Assembly: GCA_937858455.1 (NCBI GenBank)
Contig: CALLYN010000864.1
Span: forward strand, 1-24,882
DNA: 24,882 bases
From: an uncultured Kouleothrix sp.
GTDB taxonomy: Bacteria > Chloroflexota > Chloroflexia > Chloroflexales > Roseiflexaceae
Direction: 5' to 3'
The notes below the pieces were generated by a model, which was not told the origin of the DNA, made no database searches, and saw only the letters and a program-made list of their open reading frames with translations. A program made the translations under genes and the position numbers. Position 1 is the first letter of the stretch, and every line of letters starts with the position of its first letter. Shown here piece after piece: positions 17,511-22,872 of the stretch.

Positions 17511-19064
17511 CTACGCGGCCGGCGCCGATGCTCGCCCGGCGCGTGCCACCAGCGAGCGTGGGCGCGGCGCGAGCTGGCGGCGCCGATTCGCGCGCACCGG
17601 CTCAGGCCGCACGGCCGGCATCGGCCGCGCAACCGGCTCCAGCTGCTCGGTGGCGTAGCCCAGCAGGCTCATGATCGCGCCCAGGTTTTGTGGGGCAACC
17701 TCGCGCACCACCAGCGCGTCGTCGTCCTGCTCGATAATGATCCGCCTCATCTCGGGGTTGAGGCAGTGGTGCGCGCCGCCGCGGCCCGAGATCATCTGCT
17801 GGTAGGCGCCTACGCCGAACACCGCTACCGTCAGCCCTGCGCCGGCATCGGGCAGCATCAGCGGCGGCTGCGACGGCCGCGGAAACATGTCGTCCGAGTC
17901 GCAGGTGCGCCGGCCGCCCAGCCGCACGCCGCGCGCCTCGGCATCCCAGCGCTCGAGCGGCAGCACAATGAACTGCTGGTCTTCGACGATCAGCGTATCG
18001 GGCAGCGACACCATCATGCTGCCATTGACCAAGTACCACGGCTCGGCCTGGGAGGCCTGCGCGGCTTTCACCGCGCCAACCTCGAACAGGTAGACGCTAT
18101 GGTTCGCCACGGTGTAGCGCCCAAACTCGCCGATAATGTCGGGCTGGGGCACGCCGTGCTCGGCGCACACCGTCGCGAGGCTGGCCATCAGGCGGCGTAG
18201 AAATGCCGGGTAGTCGAAGGCGAAGCCGAGCGCGTACGCCGAGGTGGGCATGCCGCCGCCAAAGTTAAACGCGCGCAGCGTCGGCACCTGCTGGCGCAGC
18301 CGGCAGTAGGCTGCCGCCGAGCGCTCGAGCCGCGCCATCCAGCCGTCCATATCTTCGAGCTGGCTGCCGACCATCGCGTGGTACACCACCAGCTGGTGCG
18401 GCGTGCCGGCCAGCCGCCGTGCAACCTCGGCGATCTCGTCCTGGGTCAGCCCAAAGCGCTCGCCGCCGGGATGGGCCGGATTGACGACATCGGCGAAGTG
18501 CCGCTCGCGCACGCCGAGCAGCAGCGGCTCCGTGCAGCGCGCCAGGTATGCGTCGAGCTCGGCCAGGTCGTCGAGGATCGGCACCACGCGCGCGTAGCCG
18601 GCCTCGCGCAGCGCCACGATCGCGTCGACGTAGCTCGCCTCTTTTGAGCCGTTGCAGAACAGGTAGCGCGTGTCGGGCAACACGCCCTGCCGCCATAGAT
18701 GGTGCGCGATCAACACGTCGGCGGTGGCGGATGTCTCGTAGTGCGCGCCAGCCGCAAGGGCGGTGCGCACGACCTCTTCGGCGAAGTTGGCCTTGGTGGC
18801 GTAGGCGTACAGAAACTCGCCCTCGTAGCCACTTTCCGCGCGCGCGCCGGCCGCCCAGCCGAGCATGCGCTCAACCTGGGTGGTGATCAGCGGGCAGTAG
18901 GCGATCTCCAGCGGTGCGCCGTAGCGTTCGGCCATGGCGCTAAGGTCGATGCGGTCTGCAAGCAGCAGCCGCCCATCCCGGCGACTGAGAAAATCAGTCA
19001 GCATACCTTCGGACTCAATGCCGTACCGATTCTGAATGTAGTCGAGATAGGACTGCTTGCTCAA
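17511..19064 (-). CDS. speA: SpeA-type arginine decarboxylase (fold III PLP enzyme)
   Basis: A 517-residue alanine-racemase-fold PLP decarboxylase. The PLP lysine is K91 in YAYATKANF; H-Y-E-T-S-A-T-A-D follows, then VYHAMVGSQLED, the glycine loop FNFGGGMPT, GEFGRYTVANH for the phosphate side, and CDSDD near the C-terminus, where Cys and Asp bind the substrate of the paired subunit. Length and pattern fit the biosynthetic arginine decarboxylase clade, making agmatine for polyamines; a related ornithine or carboxynorspermidine activity is less likely. The C-terminal 40 residues are Arg/Pro-rich and lie near element A. The start is TTG at 19064, set by AAGGAGGG at 19080-19073; the open frame upstream is poor. 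A long leader or separate RNA lies upstream. Confidence 0.8.
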   Translation of the reverse strand: MSKQSYLDYIQNRYGIESEGMLTDFLSRRDGRLLLADRIDLSAMAERYGAPLEIAYCPLITTQVERMLGWAAGARAESGYEGEFLYAYATKANFAEEVVRTALAAGAHYETSATADVLIAHHLWRQGVLPDTRYLFCNGSKEASYVDAIVALREAGYARVVPILDDLAELDAYLARCTEPLLLGVRERHFADVVNPAHPGGERFGLTQDEIAEVARRLAGTPHQLVVYHAMVGSQLEDMDGWMARLERSAAAYCRLRQQVPTLRAFNFGGGMPTSAYALGFAFDYPAFLRRLMASLATVCAEHGVPQPDIIGEFGRYTVANHSVYLFEVGAVKAAQASQAEPWYLVNGSMMVSLPDTLIVEDQQFIVLPLERWDAEARGVRLGGRRTCDSDDMFPRPSQPPLMLPDAGAGLTVAVFGVGAYQQMISGRGGAHHCLNPEMRRIIIEQDDDALVVREVAPQNLGAIMSLLGYATEQLEPVARPMPAVRPEPVRANRRRQLAPRPRSLVARAGRASAPAA

Positions 19065-19296
19065 TGCTGGTGCCCTCCTTGATATGCGCGTGTCACGCGC
19101 GACGCAATCTGAAAAAACGGCAGCCTGAAGCCGGCACACGGCGCGCGGCGCGCAGTGCGGCGGCTTGCTTGTCGAATATGGTTTGGGTAGGCCGGGCGAA
19201 GAGATTGTGTGATCTTGGGTTTCTCCATCCTGGTTTCAGGGCGCAATGACGCGCCGTGGCGCATCCAGTCGAGCGACGGGCGCAGGCCAGGCTGAA

Positions 19297-19334
19297 GGGC
19301 AAGAAGAAGCCCCTACACCGGCTGGTGCAGGGGC
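19297..19334 (-). terminator. Rho-independent terminator of the RNA candidate (minus strand)
   Basis: On the minus strand an 11-base stem with one G-U pair (19334-19324 with 19319-19309), loop AGCC, is followed by TTCTTCTT. It would end a transcript begun near 19621 or attenuate one running on into speA. Confidence 0.6.
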
Positions 19335-19621
19335 GCGTGCGGCAGAGGCAGGCGTCGCTTAGCGACGCTGGGGCAGGGCGGCAGGCGCCGACTCACCAGG
19401 TGGGTGATTCAGCGTGGCACAGCGTGAAAAGTCGCGGTGCTGTAAGTTGGCCTTACCGTCCATAATCCCTCTGGGAAAGCTCGCCGGACCCGCCACCCGG
19501 ATGGCTGGCCCAATGCAATGGGCGCCATCTCCCCTGGCGGTAACACGTCGGTCAGTTGCCTCGCGGGGCGGTCGCCGCGTGCCGGAGAGCCCGAATAACG
19601 TCTGGTGAATTCGTTCACCAG
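19300..19621 (-). ncRNA. Structured RNA candidate, about 320 bases, family not recognised
   Basis: Between a consensus promoter and a terminator, both minus strand, lies a stretch with no coding character but many helices: an 8-base stem with a four-base loop (19601-19620); a long hairpin at about 19538-19480 with CCGCCA/TGGCGG, GATGGC/GCCATC and GCCCA/TGGGC stacked; GTCC/GGAC enclosing TCCC-AGA-GGGA; GTAAG-GCCAA-CTTAC; GAATCACC/GGTGAGTC (one mismatch); and GCGTCGC-TAA-GCGACGC. I looked for signatures of RNase P RNA, tmRNA, SRP RNA, T-box and cobalamin riboswitch and found none that convinces. It could be a free RNA or an attenuated speA leader. The opposite strand forms the same helices and has its own terminator at 19633-19674, so orientation is not certain. 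Confidence 0.5.
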
Positions 19622-19627
19622 TGCGAA

Positions 19628-19655
19628 ATTATAGCGCGTTTTACCTGTTTGTCAA
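19628..19655 (-). promoter_or_regulatory. Consensus promoter for the RNA candidate or speA leader
   Basis: Minus-strand TTGACA (19655-19650) and TATAAT (19633-19628), both perfect, with a 16-base spacer: the strongest promoter in the window. The -35 lies in the loop of the palindrome at 19633-19670. Confidence 0.8.
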
Positions 19656-19674
19656 GAGGTAAAACGCGCTTTTT
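19633..19674 (+). terminator. Perfect hairpin with T-run, overlapping the minus-strand promoter
   Basis: A perfect 14-base stem (19633-19646 with 19657-19670), 10-base loop and TTTTT (19670-19674) make a textbook plus-strand terminator. No plus-strand gene lies upstream after 17352, so it either ends a plus-strand RNA or is really a palindromic operator over the minus-strand promoter. Confidence 0.6.
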
Positions 19675-19770
19675 GCTAGAAGCAAATTTGGATGCCGAAA
19701 CCGATTGCAAAGCTCAATTTGGCATTCCGCGTATGAAGCCGTCTTCGATTGGCTCGATTGTTCAATAATG

Positions 19771-19910
19771 ATTAGGACTTGCGCAGTTGGCGGGCTCTGC
19801 CAAAGGCAGAGCGGTACTGTTCTCTGTATCGTGAACGGTTTTTCCGCGTTCCGCGCGGAAAAACCGTTCACAGAAGATGAACAAGTACCCTGCTGCCGCA
19901 GGCTCAATCT
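19771..19910. repeat. Two-hairpin intergenic element (element B)
   Basis: It has TGCGCAGTTGGCGGGCTCT, a GCTCTGCC-AAA-GGCAGAGC hairpin (19794-19812) and a perfect 17-base stem (19831-19847 with 19855-19871) with loop GTTCCGC flanked by TTTTCCGC and GCGGAAAA, the same core as element A. GCTGCCGCAGGC at 19892-19903 is the inverse of the core in elements C and D. It lies just downstream of the VWA gene. The bases 19675-19770 before it are less GC-rich and show no feature I can name. Confidence 0.75.
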
Positions 19911-19986
19911 CGTACCGTGAGGAACCCGAAGCACGCAAGTGCGTAACTCCTAATGATCTACGCGGCTGGCGCGGCAGGGTTTCATG

Positions 19987-22872
19987 CTACTGCTGGCGCT
20001 GTTTGCGGGCGCGCTGCTTGGCAGCCATCAGCCGGGCGAACTGGTCGTCGTCGCTCGGGGCTGGCGCTGGCGCGGCTGGCTCGGCTGGCGCTGTGGGCGG
20101 CTGGTCGGCTGGCTCGGCGGCAGCCTGAAAGATTGGTGCGGCTGGCTCGGCCGGGCGTGCTTGCAGCTCGGGCACGGCCCGCAGGTCGCGCGCGCGCTGC
20201 TTGGCGGCGCCAAGCCGGCTTAGTGTCGCGCCGCGCTCTGGGCTGGCCGGGCGCGCGCCTGGCCTGGGGCGGAGCGCCGCTAGCCAGGGCGCGAATTCGC
20301 CCAGCCGCGGGAACAGTCGGCGCAGGCCAATGTCGAGCGGCCAGAGCAGCAGCGCCAGCCACAGCAGCGGCAGGCTGATCTCGGTGACAGTGCCGACAGC
20401 CTGTGCCGGCGAGTCGAACACTGTCTCGGCGGCAGGGTCGGCGCGCCCGCCAGTGAGGCTCGCCAGGTCGCGCAGCAGCTGTGGGTTGTCGCGCGTCTCG
20501 CCATACTCCGGCGAGTAGTTCACCACCAGCCCAGTGGCGGCTGTGCCAATAGGCTGGCCATCGGCGTTTGTAGCCGCCAGCCGCGCCAGGTATACGCCCG
20601 GCGTGTCGGCGGGGGCGGTGGCGCGGTAGCGGCCGGGGCCGATCTGGCTGAAGTTCAGCGGGGCGCTGGTATTATCGGGCGCGACCAGCTGCGCCCGAAT
20701 CGCGAGCTGGTTAACCGTGCGGCCCTGGTCGTCCTGCGCGTCGAGCTCAAACGCGGTCTGGCCGGCGCTGGCGCTGGCTCGCAGCGTGAGCGTGCCGGAC
20801 GGGCGCGGCGGCAGCAGCATATCGGCCAGGCCGCCCACGAAGCGCGGGAACTGATCCCAGCCGACCCACTCGCGGCCCCACTGGCCTTTGAAGTCGCTCG
20901 TCCACGCCACCGCGCGCCCCAGGCCATACTGCCACTGCGCCAGGATCGGCTTGCCGTCGGGTGTCACCAGAATGGCGCGCGCGGCCTGCTTGATCTCGGT
21001 GCCATTGTAGCCATACAGCGGTGGCAGCCCGCCAAGCCCGCGCACCACCGGCGCCTGCAGCGCCACGGCCGGCGTGAATTTGCCTTCGATGATGTCGCGC
21101 CCGGCCACGATCACGGTTTCTTGCAGAAAGATCCGCGGGATGGCGGCGGCGTTTTCCACCTTATAGTAGCGCCCGCCGCCTTGCGTGGCAATGTCTTCCA
21201 GGTTTGGGTTCGCGTCGCTGCCGATCGCCACAGTCGAGATCGTCACACCCGCCGCGCGCAGCTCGTCGACCTGCTGGCTGTAGTTGCTGGGCGCCAGGCC
21301 GTCGGTCATCAGAATAATATGCTTGATCTTGGCGTTGGCTCCGCTGATCGCGTTCGCCGCTGTCTGCAAGCCAGGCAGAATATCGGTGCCGCCGCCCTGG
21401 TCGAAGCGGCCAAGCGCCTGCTCGATCTCCACGGTCGATGGCAGCTTTTGCAGCGGCAGGATCGTCTCGGCCGCGTCGTCGAACACCACCAGGCCCACCT
21501 GGTCGCGCTTGCTCAGGCCGAGCGTGGCCTGGTATACCGCCTCCTTGGCCAGATCGAGCTTGGTGCGGCTACCGCCGCCTGGCTCGCCCATGCTGCCGCT
21601 GCGGTCGATCACCAGCATCAGCGCCAGGTCAGGCTGCTGCGCAGTGTCAAGCGGGTCGAGGTTCACCGGCAGCGCGTCTTCGATGCTTGCCCCGCTGTTG
21701 TCCTGCACCGCGCGCCGGTAGCCGCCGGCGCCGAACGATTCGCCGCCGCCGATCATGGCCAGGCCGCGCCCCAGGTCGCGCACATAACTGGGCAGCGCGC
21801 GTAGCAGCTCGCGCGGCACGTCGCGCGCGGGCGTATCGACGAGCACCACCCCGGCGTAGTTGCTCAGCTGGTCGAGGCTGGCGGGGGCCTGGTTCGGCGC
21901 GCGTAGGTCGGTTCGCACGCCAGTCGACTCAAGCGCGGCCTGGAGGTTCGCGGCGCGCGTGGGGTCGGCGGCGATCAGCAGCACGCGCGGCGGCCCGAGC
22001 ACTTCGGTGAAAGCCCCGGCGCGGTTATTCTGTGGCTCGGTGTCGCCATCGGCCGCGAGCCTGGCCTCGATTCGCCGGAAGCCCGCCGTGCCGGATGGCA
22101 GCCGCACCGCCACGCTGCTCGCCCCGGCCGGGATGGCGACGTCCAGCTCGCGCGCTAGCTGCCCGTCGACGAGGATCTGCAGGCGGCCGCGCGTGGCTAT
22201 GTTCGAGGTCAGCGCAACTGTCAGCGCGACCTCTTGCCCCTCGCGCGCCTGCGCCGGCATCTCGACGGCGGTAAGAATGACGTCGGCGCCGCGCTCGCTG
22301 CGGAGCGTCACTACGTCGAGCGGCACGCCGCGCGCGAGCGCCAGCCGCGCGGCCTCGACCGCGTGGCCGCTGTTTTCGCCACCATCCGAGAGCAGCACCA
22401 GCCGCTTCTGCGAGTCGGCTGGCAGCAGCGCGATCCCGAGCTGCATAGCCTCCTGAATGTTCGTGCGGGTGCTGACCGGCAGCGAGTTGATCTGGCCTAG
22501 CGCCGATAAGCGGGCTGGAGCGCGCTCGACCAGCGCGCCGGCGCCGAAGACCACCACGGCCGCGCGGTCGCCGCTGGGCAGCTTGCGCAGCGCCTGGTCG
22601 ATATATTGGACCGCGCGCTCGCGCTGGCTTGGGGCGATCGAGTCCGAGGCGTCGAGCAGAAACACCGTGGTGAGCGCGCGCACCGGCTGCACTAGCTGTG
22701 CGCCGGCTAGCCCAAGCACCAGCGCCACGAGCATGGCGCTGCGCAGCAGCAGGCTCGCCCAAAAGCGCCAGCGCGCAACGCGGCGGGGCGTCAGCAGCGC
22801 CAGCGCCCACAGCAGTGGCGCGAGCGCCAGCAGCGCGAGTGCTGCCGGTGTCACAAACGACAGGTGCGGCAT
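19987..22872 (-). CDS. Membrane protein with two VWA domains and a glutamine-amidotransferase-like middle
   Basis: A 961-residue protein. Two N-terminal membrane segments (about 9-27 and 37-60) precede a VWA domain whose metal site is D74-A-S76-D-S78, with STRTN and SDGGEN. A beta-sandwich (200-290) and a class I glutamine-amidotransferase-like Rossmann part follow (292-400, RVLLIAADPT, LAMIGGGESFGAGGY). A second VWA domain has D423-R-S425-G-S427, T496 in GGGTD and D524 in MTDG. A membrane segment lies near residue 840; the Pro/Ala-rich tail repeats AAKQRAR twice. This resembles BatA/BatB-like and DUF1355-type VWA proteins, with unknown partners; no MoxR ATPase is nearby. The open frame runs upstream to 23040, but GAGG before ATG 22872 and the hydrophobic start put the start there. 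Confidence 0.83.
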   Translation of the reverse strand: MPHLSFVTPAALALLALAPLLWALALLTPRRVARWRFWASLLLRSAMLVALVLGLAGAQLVQPVRALTTVFLLDASDSIAPSQRERAVQYIDQALRKLPSGDRAAVVVFGAGALVERAPARLSALGQINSLPVSTRTNIQEAMQLGIALLPADSQKRLVLLSDGGENSGHAVEAARLALARGVPLDVVTLRSERGADVILTAVEMPAQAREGQEVALTVALTSNIATRGRLQILVDGQLARELDVAIPAGASSVAVRLPSGTAGFRRIEARLAADGDTEPQNNRAGAFTEVLGPPRVLLIAADPTRAANLQAALESTGVRTDLRAPNQAPASLDQLSNYAGVVLVDTPARDVPRELLRALPSYVRDLGRGLAMIGGGESFGAGGYRRAVQDNSGASIEDALPVNLDPLDTAQQPDLALMLVIDRSGSMGEPGGGSRTKLDLAKEAVYQATLGLSKRDQVGLVVFDDAAETILPLQKLPSTVEIEQALGRFDQGGGTDILPGLQTAANAISGANAKIKHIILMTDGLAPSNYSQQVDELRAAGVTISTVAIGSDANPNLEDIATQGGGRYYKVENAAAIPRIFLQETVIVAGRDIIEGKFTPAVALQAPVVRGLGGLPPLYGYNGTEIKQAARAILVTPDGKPILAQWQYGLGRAVAWTSDFKGQWGREWVGWDQFPRFVGGLADMLLPPRPSGTLTLRASASAGQTAFELDAQDDQGRTVNQLAIRAQLVAPDNTSAPLNFSQIGPGRYRATAPADTPGVYLARLAATNADGQPIGTAATGLVVNYSPEYGETRDNPQLLRDLASLTGGRADPAAETVFDSPAQAVGTVTEISLPLLWLALLLWPLDIGLRRLFPRLGEFAPWLAALRPRPGARPASPERGATLSRLGAAKQRARDLRAVPELQARPAEPAAPIFQAAAEPADQPPTAPAEPAAPAPAPSDDDQFARLMAAKQRARKQRQQ

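Follow-up and report, generated by a model that had tools for sequence, protein, structure and literature searches.

Which kind of RNA is encoded between the speA-like gene and the VWA gene of an uncultured Kouleothrix sp.? The window, i.e. the whole stretch of 24,882 nucleotides that was analyzed, had been read by eye as carrying a strong promoter at this place, followed by a structured RNA of about 320 bases without protein and by a terminator about 230 bases upstream of speA. Scanning of positions 18900-20000 revealed a single promoter-like site, on the minus strand at 19655-19628, which agreed with TTGACA-16-TATAAT in 12 of 12 positions (shuffled sequences: mean of 0.4 sites). A minus-strand terminator-like site with a T-rich tail was found at 19334-19309, one of four such sites in the same interval (1.5 expected), and about 237 nt separate the end of the terminator from the TTG start of the speA-like gene. 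The minus-strand RNA from 19624 to 19297, which comprises the approximately 320 nt between promoter and terminator, folds with -158 kcal/mol, better than all 100 shuffled versions (z = -3.78). For the plus strand, z was -1.88 and 5 of 100 shuffled sequences folded equally well. Promoter, structured RNA and terminator of the original prediction were thus recovered. In contrast, the RNA is not devoid of coding potential. It contains an upstream open reading frame (uORF) of 34 codons, MDGKANLQHRDFSRCATLNHPPGESAPAALPQRR, at 19463-19359, which is preceded by AGAGGG at 19472-19467 and whose openness is conserved in relatives. The positions of all elements are compiled in Table 1.

Table 1. Elements of the speA leader and the following gene, in window coordinates.
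Element	Position	Strand	Basis
Promoter TTGACA-16-TATAAT	19628..19655	-	12 of 12 matches; sigma-70-type match upstream of the element in 56 of 59 element-bearing loci
P1 hairpin, 5′ end of the RNA	19603..19620	-	swap test over leaders
J1, conserved segment 5′ of P2	19591..19598	-	pairing with the Shine-Dalgarno sequence unsupported
P2, 5′ strand	19582..19590	-	compensatory changes
Variable domain enclosed by P2	19488..19581	-	length and sequence vary among families
P2, 3′ strand	19479..19487	-	compensatory changes
Shine-Dalgarno sequence AGAGGG of the uORF	19467..19472	-	coordinates; core alignment
uORF, 34 codons and stop	19359..19463	-	open frame kept in relatives
Potential antiterminator, 5′ strand, in the last third of the uORF	19377..19400	-	-27.4 kcal/mol; shuffled -16.6 ± 3.2
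Hairpin whose loop is the uORF stop codon	19352..19371	-	coordinates
Potential antiterminator, 3′ strand, overlapping the 5′ arm of the terminator	19321..19344	-	pairing search
Intrinsic terminator	19301..19334	-	terminator scan; T-rich tail
Arginine-decarboxylase-like gene speA, fold type III, probable TTG start	17511..19064	-	below NCBIfam SpeA cut-offs

No class had been recognized for this RNA by eye, and none emerged from Rfam. In the window, no family matched the leader at the gathering score, and only irrelevant matches appeared near it up to E = 10. Scans of the speA leaders of relatives, at the gathering score or with E-value limits of 10 or 1, likewise yielded no fitting family, their weak matches being chance-like. 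The RNase P, SRP, T-box and cobalamin classes were covered by these scans, and a tRNA/tmRNA search of the window found neither. Two inverted repeats lie nearby. One (19633-19670; 17 nt, 94%, 4-nt gap) spans the -35 box of the leader promoter and extends as far as its -10 box; it is a possible operator and, judged by eye, is not conserved in relatives. The other (19805-19897; 44-nt arms, 73% complementary) is located behind the VWA gene and is perhaps its terminator.

The product of the downstream gene is a fold-III PLP decarboxylase with the Pfam domain Orn_Arg_deC_N. Biosynthetic arginine decarboxylases are its best matches both among NCBIfam models and in the PDB, but its scores remain far below the NCBIfam SpeA cut-offs (118.7 of 624.1 and 131.1 of 369 bits). 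From its sequence, the gene likely serves to make polyamines. An agmatinase-like gene seen by eye directly upstream in two loci of one family (L175 and L176) fits an agmatine route. Of the predicted leader for polyamine synthesis, the leader itself is supported, and the polyamine product is likely. The assembly of the window harbors a second speA-like gene (G000:C415:89-1555; 54% identical, one in-frame TGA), possibly an assembly contaminant. Between terminator and speA, five loci (L009, L011, L020, L023 and L025) have another GGAG-type site with ATC or ATA behind it, well ahead of the gene and, in several of them, by eye in frame with it; this might be a non-canonical start or a second uORF.

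A DNA search with the leader as query retrieved relatives upstream of speA in two genomes of the family. Scanning genome contigs with a SpeA alignment provided 68 loci with record titles. Four of them have less than 450 nt upstream (L060, L062, L091 and L097), and four, remote relatives that belong to other phyla, lack the element (L098, L099, L100 and L105). In 59 of the 60 usable loci (at least 450 nt upstream), the element TATG[GA]ACG is located 217-668 nt upstream of speA, the exception being L094. These 59 share a common plan consisting of promoter, hairpin P1, the long-range helix P2, a core with TATGGACG, the uORF and a terminator. According to the record titles they belong to Roseiflexaceae, Chloroflexaceae, Herpetosiphonaceae and a few otherwise-labelled MAGs. 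Many of the loci L008-L037 are identical to loci among L038-L105. The 84 leaders were reduced to 61 that are unique in the first 200 nt, a step at which L082, L086 and L089 were dropped (no promoter match). As the leaders were located via TATG[GA]ACG, the conservation of the start codon and of the second residue is partly by construction.

Among the Chloroflexota genomes scanned, matches to the leader core were confined to the order of the window. R1, a 54-nt sequence model of the core, was applied to 400 Chloroflexota genomes and at E up to 0.001 matched 38 of 40 genomes of the order and none of the 360 others. Thirty-eight of 40 matches lie on the same strand less than 1 kb upstream of speA and an open frame is kept inside, which speaks against the abundant non-coding RNA that had also been envisaged. 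At E up to 0.5, matches were obtained in 77 of 82 genomes of the order, many of the weak ones probably by chance. An exact match to the pattern GTGAGGNNNTATGGACG is present in 31 of these 82 genomes (reversed control: 2), and in two of the 31 (G036 and G044) it is found away from speA. Six genomes of the same class outside the order encode speA at 40-47% identity; those included in the 400-genome scan showed no R1 match. Viral contigs contained no relative of the SpeA alignment. Five upstream regions from the out-of-order genomes were read by eye. In another family of the class (L171-L174; four of the regions read, of five genomes), a short ORF ending in VRHPSTTAG or VRHPSATAG plus stop directly precedes speA. 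With its synonymous third-position differences, this ORF looks like a conserved leader peptide.

Since the helix arms are out of register in the sequence-only alignment A2, from which RNAalifold predicted 0 pairs, we assessed the helices by a swap test. Strands are exchanged between species, and true partners should pair better than strangers. Representative sets of 34 and 36 leaders were chosen by eye. With 34 leaders, none of 20000 permutations was as good as the true pairing for P1, P2 or the antiterminator segment. Within eight Roseiflexaceae, 652 (P1), 6 (P2) and 6 (antiterminator) of 20000 were, and within 18 leaders from L063 upward, mostly Chloroflexaceae, 0, 0 and 969. In 11 leaders, two-sided changes affect nine of the ten P2 pairs, and 96.4% of the cells pair compared to 30-48% when the strands are slid, a regularity that is overstated because the set was picked for an ungapped 10-base P2 in the best-pairing register. 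One of five measures on this alignment, further pair types, gave no signal (420 of 500 shuffles). Sequestration of the Shine-Dalgarno sequence by J1, spotted by eye, was not supported (7527 of 20000). Covariation, for which the original prediction had suggested a test, was found in both P1 and P2. Together with the position upstream of the decarboxylase gene and the lack of an Rfam family, it upholds the notion of a new regulatory leader. The core around UAUGGACG is nearly invariant and contains the ribosome binding site and the start codon, while the variable domain inside P2 is not common to different families. In the Chloroflexaceae L065-L104, about 90 nt of this domain are more conserved than their surroundings and constitute a candidate ligand or protein site.

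The reading frame following the conserved AUG is free of stops before codon 20 in all 61 unique leaders (22-42 residues), whereas the other two frames are interrupted before codon 20 in 33 and 31 of them. Among 36 representatives the first stop falls on codons 22-42 in all cases, compared to 5 and 8 in the other frames and to a mean of 8.4 and a maximum of 17 in 1000 simulations; the relatedness of the leaders means that these counts do not represent independent cases. The uORFs of 12 Roseiflexaceae leaders form a gap-free alignment, each with 33-34 residues. A conserved peptide is ruled out by the equal change at codon positions 1, 2 and 3 (429/552/524 and 935/929/915, with no third-position excess) and by the Chloroflexaceae uORFs, whose alignment has 8% of its positions out of frame. 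Arginine is not enriched (0.108 versus 0.116 and 0.091 in the other frames). The only clearly enriched residue is asparagine (0.058 versus 0.018 and 0.013), which is conserved at codon 6. A Pfam scan of seven uORF peptides, six of them from speA leaders, returned nothing above the cut-off, including DUF2618 (PF10940). Equal codon-position change, no arginine enrichment and no Pfam family indicate that a frame of bounded length is maintained rather than a peptide. As in ribosome-mediated attenuators, a short ORF with a ribosome binding site precedes an intrinsic terminator; a run of regulatory codons is lacking, arginine not being enriched. The distance from the uORF stop to the T-run of the terminator is 45-92 nt, two misplaced terminator calls excluded.

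A terminator was called by script in 58 of 61 leaders (none in L017, L024 and L045), the calls in L034 and L065 being seemingly misplaced. The terminator strands showed little signal in the swap test (mean rank 0.43). In the window, uORF bases can pair with a segment that includes the 5′ arm of the terminator, and this potential antiterminator (-27.4 kcal/mol; Table 1) compares with -23.8 kcal/mol for the terminator hairpin. The corresponding preset segment, to which the search was confined, pairs in 12 of 12 Roseiflexaceae leaders with z-scores from -0.9 to -4.0 (-3.3 or below in four of them). When partners of the bare terminator arm were sought without such confinement, no general antiterminator emerged and the result was overall not above chance; for the window, the best partner lay upstream of the uORF and did not exceed chance either. 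Another clade has a strong potential antiterminator in six of six leaders, where a segment around codons 8-14 pairs with the terminator arm (-23 to -32 kcal/mol); in four of the six, none of 200 shuffled versions pairs as well. Thirteen leaders were folded at equilibrium with the ribosome footprint held unpaired. For three of the codon 8-14 clade, the terminator probability was 0.02-0.28 without ribosome, 0.76-0.93 with a ribosome at codon 8 or 14 and 0.51-0.91 with a ribosome at the stop codon. In nine of the 13, including the leader of the window, it was at least 0.79 in every ribosome state. According to these calculations, it is plausible that the codon 8-14 clade would switch at equilibrium and the leader of the window only during transcription.

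Taken together, the speA leader is probably a cis-acting transcription attenuator that is operated by translation of its uORF. Promoter, helices, open frame, terminator, pairing potential and conservation can be read from the sequences, and from them we infer that the uORF is translated in the cell and that its translation affects termination. The 5′ part of the leader would fold up to the ribosome binding site of the uORF, P1 first and then P2 around the variable domain. Occurrence and extent of translation would subsequently select between two downstream structures, the terminator and the antiterminator, which has its 5′ strand inside the ORF. The act of translation and not the peptide would matter. 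Translation of the uORF may respond to the pool of the product as signal, either to polyamine or to the polyamine/Mg2+ balance. As to the direction, ribosomes on the uORF favor termination in the folding of the codon 8-14 clade, and uORF translation would thus repress.

The nearly invariant core and the covarying helices would also suit a metabolite riboswitch, in which an aptamer for polyamine, agmatine or arginine, made of P1/P2 and the core around UAUGGACG, drives the terminator directly, the AUG being conserved as RNA and not as start codon. The strongly conserved 90 nt in the variable domain of Chloroflexaceae point in the same direction. An aptamer, however, has no need for a frame that in all 36 representatives runs without a stop to at least codon 22, the conserved core includes ribosome binding site and start codon, and the variable domain differs between families; we regard a riboswitch as unlikely. 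Even less probable is classic amino acid attenuation or an arrest peptide, with ribosomes stalling at arginine codons or at a nascent-peptide motif. The enzyme is closest to arginine decarboxylases and a neighboring family has a uORF with conserved C-terminus before speA, but only asparagine and not arginine is clearly enriched and the codon positions change equally. We give very little credence to a trans-acting small RNA that merely resides upstream of speA. Such an RNA would have its own promoter and terminator, as observed, and one copy of the uORF part in genome G001 has no visible co-oriented gene behind it, yet the leader is tied to speA across the whole order and its frame is kept open.

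An attenuator operated by uORF translation may not be confined to speA. The genome of the window contains a further R1 match (G000:C425), which, like G001:C1646, follows an M-box riboswitch (each M-box with 113 bits and E = 6e-25). M-box covariance matches occurred only in these separate loci (L178 and L179) and not in speA leaders. A survey yielded 25 M-box loci (L192-L216) in 23 of 82 genomes of the order. In 23 of the 25, a uORF starting with ATGGA, found through ATGGA[CA], begins 66-97 nt behind the M-box end as set by us and has its first stop at codon 21-45. A stop at codons 20-46 occurs in 23 of 23, compared to 3 of 23 in each other frame. A second terminator was called by script behind 22 of 23 uORFs, in 20 of them 46-56 nt behind the stop. 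From sequence, these loci appear to combine a riboswitch with a uORF attenuator in tandem. The next long ORF is by eye MgtE-like in several, and an alpha/beta-hydrolase-like gene comes first in G000, G006 and G007. The peptides often have an acidic start and then turn basic (MDEGGHRSQRR..., MDDGSHRSQRRR...), partly by construction. The M-box and speA uORFs seem to follow a common plan; common descent is not claimed because only the G000:C425 and G001 copies matched the speA core model. A rather doubtful extension is that Chloroflexales use one ribosome-based cation sensor, a short ORF with a terminator about 50-90 nt behind its stop, both at the polyamine enzyme and behind the M-box of Mg2+-transport operons. 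If so, polyamine synthesis and Mg2+ uptake would answer to the same ribosome state.

A limited literature search found no description of this speA leader, and the text of a study on RNA regulons including Chloroflexi (PMC3766115) mentions neither speA nor polyamine. The conserved attenuator leader of an arginine-decarboxylase-like gene is apparently undescribed, and adds a structured leader RNA absent from Rfam 15. That nearly every examined member of the order carries this leader points to a so far undescribed switch for polyamine synthesis. Mg2+ and polyamine levels of Salmonella are coordinately regulated by mechanisms that PMC12421838 calls unknown. An order-wide speA uORF attenuator and a similar plan at M-box uORFs would allow such a link to be tested with short reporter constructs.

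Four published systems invite comparison. The spermidine riboswitch, a SAM-I variant, is likewise a transcription-terminating leader of polyamine genes (PMC10853860), but neither the window nor its relatives contain a SAM-I-type match. An M-box controlling a uORF in mycobacteria was reported in 2026 (PMC12810186) and is similar as a structured leader RNA acting on a uORF; the leader of the window differs in having no M-box match and in ending with an intrinsic terminator. In the mgtA leader, translation of the MgtL uORF sets transcription of a cation-homeostasis gene (PMC11282234), the same type of control as proposed here. MgtL of Salmonella and E. coli acts through ribosome destabilization at acidic residues in low Mg2+ and through Rho (PMC11282234), whereas in the speA uORFs position 2 either holds a single acidic residue or is not acidic. 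Closest among published systems is the speF leader of Salmonella and E. coli, in which translation of the 34-codon orf34/SpeFL controls premature termination (PMC6386406, PMC8429421). Its peptide is conserved (DUF2618, two arginine codons) and termination is Rho-dependent (PMC6386406). The speA leader deviates by its lack of a conserved peptide, its intrinsic terminator, its P1/P2 domain and a different enzyme and phylum, yet both are long leaders of a decarboxylase that makes, or in our case likely makes, polyamines, and the uORF of the window's leader has 34 codons like that of speF.
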